Source: Paenibacillus spongiae
GTDB taxonomy: Bacteria > Bacillota > Bacilli > Paenibacillales > Paenibacillaceae
Reading direction: 5' to 3'
Assembly: GCF_024734895.1 (NCBI RefSeq)
Contig: NZ_CP091430.1
Location: 6,404,501 to 6,468,500, forward strand
DNA length: 64,000 bases
Position numbers and translations under genes: made by a program. The notes beneath the pieces were generated by a model. That model saw nothing but the letters and a program-made list of their open reading frames with translations. It was not told the origin of the DNA and made no database searches. Positions 42,949 to 62,149 of this stretch are shown in pieces; position 1 is the stretch's first letter, and every line of letters starts with the position of its first letter.

Positions 42949-43043
42949 TGTGCATACCTCCAGGCCCAATGCGGAATAGGTTCTTAACTCAGTAATATAC
43001 TCTACATTTTGTACTGTAACTAGATATTCTGTACTCTAACACT

Positions 43044-43107
43044 GCACTCTGTACTCTGTACTCTGCACTCTGCACTCTGCACTCTGTACTCTGCACTCTG
43101 CACTCTG
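43044..43107. repeat. Nine-unit 7-bp tandem repeat (GYACTCT)
   Basis: Units GCACTCT and GTACTCT alternate irregularly nine times with no other change. A single further unit lies at 43031-43037. It starts about 96 bases upstream of the DUF4037 start codon, so length change could affect its promoter. Confidence 0.9.
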
Positions 43108-43153
43108 TCCTTGCCTGCTAGTTTCTCTATCATGCGTGATGCCGTTGTCGAGA

Positions 43154-43329
43154 ATGTTGTACAACGTGCAACAATATTTCAGATTTTCTGGCCAAATGGT
43201 CGAATTGTTGTACGTTATACAACAATCGGTATTGATTAGCTGCTTTGAAATGGGAATTGTTGTAGAAAATGCAACAATCCACGGTTTTCGGCGTTTTAGT
43301 CCGCTTAATGTTGCATAATATGCAAGATT
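43154..43329. repeat. Four palindromic elements at about 51-bp period
   Basis: Elements at 43154-43175, 43204-43226, 43256-43278 and 43307-43329. Each has the form TTGTTGTA-N5-TRCAACAA with the last one more diverged (TGTTGCATAATATGCAA). Start-to-start steps are 50, 52 and 51, with unrelated spacers of 28, 29 and 28. A diverged pair of the same motif lies at 52729-52795. The region 43330-43412 shows nothing further. Confidence 0.8.
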
Positions 43330-43412
43330 ACAACCCATACCGATTCGTACAAACCATGAACCATTTCGACGGCCTATGTCGGCTAGATCAGTGGAAATTG
43401 GAGTGGTTGCGG

Positions 43413-43446
43413 CGAACGCTACCGAAAAAGTAGCGTGCGGTTTTTT
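43413..43446 (+). terminator. Strong plus-strand terminator without an upstream gene
   Basis: ACGCTAC pairs with GTAGCGT over CGAAAAA, then GCGG and TTTTTT on the plus strand. No plus-strand coding sequence precedes it for kilobases. The palindrome block at 43154-43329 is directly upstream, so it may end a non-coding transcript. Confidence 0.7.
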
Positions 43447-52728: not shown

Positions 52729-52795
52729 ATGTTGCATTACCTCTTGCATATAGAATGCCACTCGCGAATGAAGCTTCGCCTTGCAACATGTAATT
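52729..52795. repeat. Diverged pair of the TGTTGCA palindromic repeat
   Basis: ATGTTGCATTACCTCTTGCAT and, about 52 bases on, TTGCAACATG. Same word and same spacing as the four elements at 43154-43329. It lies in the 52538-52869 gap, which otherwise holds only the terminator at 52810. Confidence 0.45.
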
Positions 52796-53920: not shown

Positions 53921-53964
53921 TAAACAGACCTGTTTAAAATTCAATTTTAACAAGTTGTTCTTCA

Positions 53965-54104
53965 CCTTCTCCCATCCGGACTATACCGTCGGCCTTGGAA
54001 TTTCACCAAGTCAGTCCCAGCCCATACAGGCTGGGAGTCGCGGGCTTAGATACATGAACGTATCCTCACCGCCGGTAGGGAATTTCACCCTGCCCCGAAG
54101 GTTC
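53965..54104 (-). promoter_or_regulatory. FMN riboswitch (RFN element)
   Basis: Minus-strand sequence carries the conserved RFN blocks in order: CTTCGGGGCAGGGTGAAATT, CCCTACCGGCGGT, AGCCCGCGA, GGTGAAATTCC, GGCCGACGGTATAGTC and CGGATGGGAGAAGG. The variable P4-type arm (CCCAGCC/GGCTGGG) is also present. It binds flavin mononucleotide and controls the EamA transporter at 52870-53838. Confidence 0.97.
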
Positions 54105-54121
54105 ATATTCTAATAGTTTGA

Positions 54122-61964: not shown

Positions 61965-62149
61965 GTTGCGGACATGAGGTACGCTATTTCATCATTTAGG
62001 CGTCAGTGGCAAGTGTTACGGACATGTAGGCCGTTATTTAAGCCTGAACGCCCCATTTTCCCATAACATCGTGCCAATAACGGATTCCATGTCCGCAACA
62101 TCGGGTTATCGAGGCGATTATAGCGAATAAAGGCTGCCATGTCCGTAAG
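61965..62149. repeat. Four GACATG repeat units at 50-bp period, two direct and two inverted
   Basis: Direct units at 61965-61989 and 62015-62039 (GTTRCGGACATG then four bases and CGYTATTT). Inverted units at 62076-62099 and 62126-62149 (AATAAMGG, four or five bases, CCATGTCCGYAA). Steps are exactly 50 within each pair, and the whole block has a symmetry centre near 62057. It fills the 61815-62243 gap between two minus-strand gene groups. No coding potential. Confidence 0.8.

Follow-up and report, generated by a model that had tools for sequence, protein, structure and literature searches.

The window, the whole stretch of 64,000 nucleotides that was analysed, covers positions 6404501-6468500 of the genome of Paenibacillus spongiae (Paenibacillaceae; 7,613,364 bases; G000 in what follows). 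It contains four palindromes with the consensus TTGTTGYA-N5-TRCAACAA, here called the T type, whose centres follow one another at 51, 52 and 51 bp and which together lie between two predicted genes, each on the minus strand (Table 1). Four palindromes at steps near 51 bp had been proposed in a first-pass annotation, and both points were borne out, the palindromes being found within one base of the starts that it had given. A tetrad score was used that requires nothing beyond four N5-centred palindromes with half-sites in common at given steps; its best value in the window was 51, whereas 20 first-order Markov controls gave 36-40. Scanning the window for the T-type motif returned no other site of comparable quality outside the tetrad. 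The annotation had also listed a weaker pair with the same step at 52729-52795, which turned out to be a single inverted repeat, CATGTTGCA...TTGCAACATG, with a gap of about 40 nt, and which the palindrome scan misses. Overlooked at that stage was a second tetrad of the same architecture and another sequence, built from C-type palindromes (TTRCGGAC-N5-GTCCGYTA); these are asymmetric, two of them being forward and two inverted within the tetrad.

Table 1. Positions of the palindrome arrays, the nuclease paralogues and neighbouring features (window coordinates unless preceded by G000)
Feature	Position	Strand	Sequence or remark
T-type palindrome P1	43154-43174		ATGTTGTACAACGTGCAACAA
T-type palindrome P2	43205-43225		TTGTTGTACGTTATACAACAA; step 51 from P1
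T-type palindrome P3	43257-43277		TTGTTGTAGAAAATGCAACAA; step 52 from P2
T-type palindrome P4	43308-43328		ATGTTGCATAATATGCAAGAT; step 51 from P3
Complete T tetrad	43151-43333		spacers 30-31 bp
C-type tetrad	61966-62148		TTGCGGACATGAGGTACGCTA, TTACGGACATGTAGGCCGTTA, TAACGGATTCCATGTCCGCAA, TAAAGGCTGCCATGTCCGTAA; steps 50/62/50
Heptamer tandem repeat	43028-43107		CTGCACT/TACTCTG, about 9-11 copies
Intrinsic-terminator-like hairpin	43413-43446	+	CGCTACCGAAAAAGTAGCG and T-run
FMN riboswitch	53960-54106	-	Rfam RF00050, 119 bits
Ten-copy T array (L050)	G000:C1:5945968-5946458		exact 52-bp steps
164-bp tandem T array	G000 at 5653256
Seven-copy T array	G000 at 7375797
C-type palindromes in tandem	G000:C1:6761323-6762186		units of about 211 bp
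Nuclease paralogue N1, intact	G000 198707-199366		adjoins T tetrad
Nuclease paralogue N2, intact	G000 5200300-5200926		C palindromes on both sides; cognate to C family
Third nuclease paralogue	G000:C1:768556-768747		decayed fragment

The heptamer repeat directly adjoins the T array, and degenerate short tandem repeats also border other arrays of the genome (for example L098, L057 and L047). The terminator-like hairpin stands just downstream of the array, and the FMN riboswitch is an ordinary one.

Palindrome arrays in the genome and in its relatives

The genome-wide motif search that the annotation had recommended was run, and the elements elsewhere are neither single nor at random spacing. 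With up to three mismatches, the T consensus has 226 sites per strand in the whole genome against 105 for a reversed control, and a pattern of two T palindromes with a free gap matches 28 times forward and 25 times in reverse, against 0 and 0 for its control. About 35 T arrays were found in this way, mostly of exactly four palindromes, with steps of 51-52, then 62-63 or 52, then 51-52 bp; the middle step is usually 62-63 in the copies other than that of the window. A simple gene call by codon score places nearly all of them between genes, which stand in every orientation, and two on open reading frames with an uncertain start or a low score. The outermost palindromes mark the end of similarity between most copies, the window array included, and a DNA similarity search with that array across the genus matched its own genome only, because the spacers diverge too fast. 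The ten-copy array, in which most spacers are near-identical, is a young satellite-like expansion from one unit. Growth by unit, as the annotation had suggested, is thus seen as a side effect, in this 52-bp array and in the 164-bp tandem units, and not otherwise.

When 400 kb and the window were scanned for tetrads without bias, only the T and C families came up, together with one internal repeat in the spacers of the ten-copy array, and the same scan with steps shifted by +5 or -5 bp returned no tetrad at all. Repeats of GCGGAC-N5-GTCCGC, at steps of 50/62/51, adjoin three of the T arrays. In another genome (G169:C1, near 1192775, 1804747 and 1975126) there are arrays in which the palindrome TAGCGGCA-N5-TGCCGCTA occurs up to nine times, with steps of 50-51 bp; these are probably a further palindrome family.

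The T two-site pattern was present in 34 of 295 Paenibacillaceae genomes, from six genera, in numbers that range from none to more than 100 between related genomes (52 + 58 in the richest), and almost all match lengths imply steps of 51-52 or 62-63 bp. A scan of GTDB contigs gave at least 120 stretches, and among the matches listed all were from Paenibacillaceae except two single ones at other spacings, presumably chance matches; phage and plasmid collections yielded zero arrays. At the loci of named relatives, again among the matches listed, 191 of 206 steps measured 51, 52, 62 or 63 bp, and 37 arrays were short-long-short and nine short-short-short. Steps of about 51.5 and 62.2 bp correspond to five and six helical turns at about 10.3-10.4 bp per turn. 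Relatives keep these steps, and the spacers are unrelated between distant species. At one orthologous locus of P. phytorum and Paenibacillus sp. Root444D2 the array aligned without gaps over 185 bp, with the palindrome arms unchanged, in intergenic flanks that were full of gaps, and at a second such locus the length from P1 through the spacer to P2 was kept exactly. In the orthologous P4 palindromes of L213 and L242 the four-base centre had changed from GTTA to TAAG with both arms intact, which suggests either a lack of constraint on the centre or a mutation hot spot there.

A nuclease-like partner and its palindromes

Open reading frames near the arrays of many species were clustered to find recurrent neighbours, and these were mostly common Paenibacillus genes, with one unusual family of about 222 aa. 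Its members adjoin T arrays in G000, G019, G240, Paenibacillus sp. V4I3 (where the gene is truncated) and P. pectinilyticus. According to Pfam, the protein has an N-terminal PD-(D/E)XK domain like those of DUF559 and MTES_1575, which matched 21 and 17 of 32 members at E < 0.01 (for DUF559 the best E value was 3e-6, and the first member scores below the curated cut-off), followed by a C-terminal winged helix. A profile search of solved structures likewise gave winged-helix matches, and this part resembles the MarR and penicillinase-repressor types. Residues W42, E55, E57, E82, H89 and R104 are invariant, and D69 is kept in more than 90% of the members. The PD-(D/E)XK core of D, E-x-D/K and H is thus retained in the family, with E-x-Q in place of E-x-D/K in the C clade, whose protein may, to judge by this replacement, bind without cutting. 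An AlphaFold model of one nuclease, made without an alignment, had a mean pLDDT of 36, too low to be of use.

The gene occurs in 242 of the 295 Paenibacillaceae genomes, with up to ten matches in each. Its neighbours include no other recurrent family beyond lineage-specific synteny, and no recurrent TnsB/C-like neighbour was found. The nuclease is absent from the phage collection, no relative was found in the viral contigs searched, and one large Paenibacillus replicon carries it; models of known defence proteins gave only weak, scattered matches.

Fifty-eight nuclease loci were scanned for any tetrad, whatever its sequence, and the mean best score was 43.8, compared with 38.5, 38.4 and 37.0 in three controls. 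Thirty of the 58 reached a score of at least 44, against 1, 0 and 0 with steps shifted by +5 or -5 and with shuffled sequence; the remaining 28 fall below this threshold, through decay, at contig ends or with another spacing. In most cases the tetrad is 0-400 bp past the 3′ end of the nuclease gene. The more alike two nucleases are, the more alike are their palindromes (Mantel r 0.66 for 36 loci and 0.76 for 29; 0 of 5000 permutations), and C-type palindromes stand beside C-clade nucleases in G000, G169 and G206, that is, in different genera and with nucleases that are 71-76% identical. Several paralogues occur per genome; those of one genome go with unrelated palindromes, and many adjoin a tetrad with a palindrome of their own. 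A T-clade nuclease is present in 31 of the 34 genomes with T arrays, against 52 of the 261 others (p = 2e-16, uncorrected for relatedness), so that T arrays without it were seen in three genomes (G006, G016 and G038).

The pairing was also used for a prediction, which was borne out. The palindrome TARYGGGA-N5-TCCCRYTA, read beside one paralogue of G032, was searched in six genomes, where it had 74 sites per strand in G032 itself against 18 for the control, and 118 against 12 in its relative G047; at least five tetrads with steps of exactly 51/62/51 were found in G032. No excess over the control appeared in G000, G019 or G091, and in G169 the loose pattern picked up the TAGCGGCA arrays instead, at their steps of 50-51 bp. 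We take it that every paralogue of the nuclease goes with a palindrome family peculiar to it, so that one genome can hold several independent families.

Duplex sites, hairpins and mobile units

The annotation had offered a protein array and a structured RNA among its suggestions. At the variable arm position the bases pair as they do in independent halves, with 78 pairs observed against 79.2 expected, and 173 against 164.3, and G-T and A-C mismatches in the arms are roughly balanced. Since pairing exceeds expectation at one nearly fixed arm position of the named set and, in G000, at the outermost position, and the centres are anti-palindromic, this test of covariation is strong only at the freely varying position. 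The independent variation of the arms speaks for half-sites that would be read in duplex DNA. That the array is transcribed into a structured RNA with four hairpins can hardly be the case: either strand, taken singly, does fold better than shuffled sequence (z -4.1 and -3.6), and a terminator-like hairpin follows downstream, but any set of palindromes is expected to fold well, the variable position does not covary, G-T is not favoured over A-C and shows no strand bias, the layout is symmetric and phased to the duplex, the orientation to genes is mixed, and an Rfam search gave no match at the window array. The protein array is the suggestion that fits best, given steps quantised at five or six turns, conserved half-sites varying independently of each other, and a winged-helix protein as their cognate. 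A CRISPR-like array was rejected, because the centres are variable and the recurrent neighbours include no cas-like gene.

In one lineage, that of Paenibacillus sp. Root444D2, the arrays have moved in the past. The flanks of ten of its arrays were sought in five relatives, and several of these have clean empty sites at the array positions. Five arrays lie inside units of 300-570 bp with 18-bp inverted GARACYGTCGATTSATTC ends, four of which are bordered by exact 5-bp duplications (TAAGC, CATTA, CTTTC and CTAAA) and the fifth by CCTTA/CGTTA, alike in four of five bases; in one relative (L420) a deletion remnant is left that includes the two unit ends. Such ends and duplications suggest that a conventional transposase acts on the units in trans, and CAVE-418 has a similar unit without T palindromes. 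It might therefore be asked whether the arrays are passengers of miniature inverted-repeat elements (MITEs), with the palindromes internal to the unit, the transposase doing everything and the nuclease a chance or secondary neighbour. This is unlikely, since ends of the GARACYGTCGATTSATTC type were not seen around the G000 arrays or at nuclease loci, where a strict search for inverted ends with duplications gave one weak match, and since helical steps conserved across unrelated palindromes, as well as the pairing of palindrome with nuclease clade, would be left unexplained. As a further reading, the arrays could be operators of a regulon, at which the winged-helix protein represses or activates and its nuclease domain is vestigial. 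The resemblance to MarR and penicillinase-repressor types, the palindromic half-sites and the variable third catalytic residue would agree with this, but the arrays occur between gene pairs of every orientation, most of them at 100-600 bp from a gene, and have no class of target gene in common, their numbers differ widely between related genomes, and the nuclease core keeps its D, E and H, so that a regulon appears very unlikely. Mobile units with similar inverted ends were also noticed at L271:3484-3650 and L303:2888-3230, one without T palindromes (CCTGT duplicated on both sides) and one with three.

The tetrad in the window is probably a copy of a scattered non-coding element, in which a palindromic protein-binding tetrad is paired with a PD-(D/E)XK and winged-helix nuclease as its partner. 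Against this stand the 28 nuclease loci that score below the tetrad threshold, the three genomes with T arrays and no T-clade nuclease, the transposon-like unit ends of Root444D2 and the E-x-Q of the C clade. We infer protein binding, DNA cleavage and spread driven by the nuclease, which might proceed as follows. With steps of five, then six or five, then five turns, the palindromes would lie on one face of the helix, and the partner would be encoded beside one array of its family; each palindrome would be bound by a dimer, which would use the winged helix for this, four such dimers would come together on that face as one complex, and there the nuclease domain would nick or cut the DNA. Arrays would then be spread and kept by the nuclease, alone or with a transposase, as REP and REPIN sequences are by RAYT enzymes. 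We see an even chance that the nuclease, as four dimers on the phased tetrad, does spread or maintain it, that new palindrome specificities have come about by its duplication and divergence, and that the whole is an independently evolved double-stranded-DNA counterpart of REPIN/RAYT.

Comparison with known systems

The palindrome families and their nucleases look like a previously undescribed system for genome scattering or DNA marking. In the open-access literature on Paenibacillus repeats, on DUF559 with palindromes and on REPIN/RAYT in Bacillus or Firmicutes, no description of such a system was found. If the proposal is true, a large family of soil bacteria holds several coexisting repeat and nuclease systems that no accessible database model describes, and dispersed palindromes with a dedicated enzyme have arisen on at least two occasions, each time with an unrelated enzyme, a point of interest for the question why RAYT/REPIN systems persist. 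The matched series of nucleases and palindromes is a natural data set on the change of specificity in a DNA-binding enzyme, and, the 5/6/5-turn geometry being fixed, the proposed assembly lends itself to a direct test.

TnsA of Tn7 has a restriction-endonuclease-like domain followed by a winged helix, and the target duplications of Tn7 are 5 bp long. The partner proteins share this order of domains; unlike TnsA, they have no Pfam TnsA match and no linked TnsB or TnsC, and the paralogues are stand-alone chromosomal genes. Through their weak Pfam matches and the D-x(n)-E-x-D/K...H core they resemble the nuclease-fold superfamily of Vsr, DUF559 and EDxHD nucleases, including the homing endonuclease I-Bth0305I. 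To our knowledge, the described members of that group nick mismatches or home into introns and have no scattered palindrome family, whereas the partner proteins add a winged helix and adjoin tetrads. The Root444D2 units share with MITEs such as Bcr1, NEMIS and RUP their short non-coding form, terminal inverted repeats and target duplications, yet the inverted ends are found in few lineages only, and the core tetrad and its pairing with a nuclease are absent from MITEs.

Membership in REP/RAYT was rejected, the Y1 HUH transposase PF01797 being absent from G000 and present in one of 22 genomes of the genus. The partner enzyme is a PD-(D/E)XK and winged-helix protein and not an HUH enzyme, the GTAG/CGTC tag of REP sequences was not seen by eye in the listed array copies, and the sites behave as duplex half-sites rather than as folded single strands, four of them locked at 51/62/51 bp. 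In REPtrons, the enzyme gene is flanked by its own repeat, and several families with element-specific enzymes occur per genome (PMC3733652). What the arrays have in common with REP and REPIN is thus the plan of the system, that is, scattered extragenic palindromes in fixed groups and a dedicated enzyme gene that is flanked by its own palindrome family.
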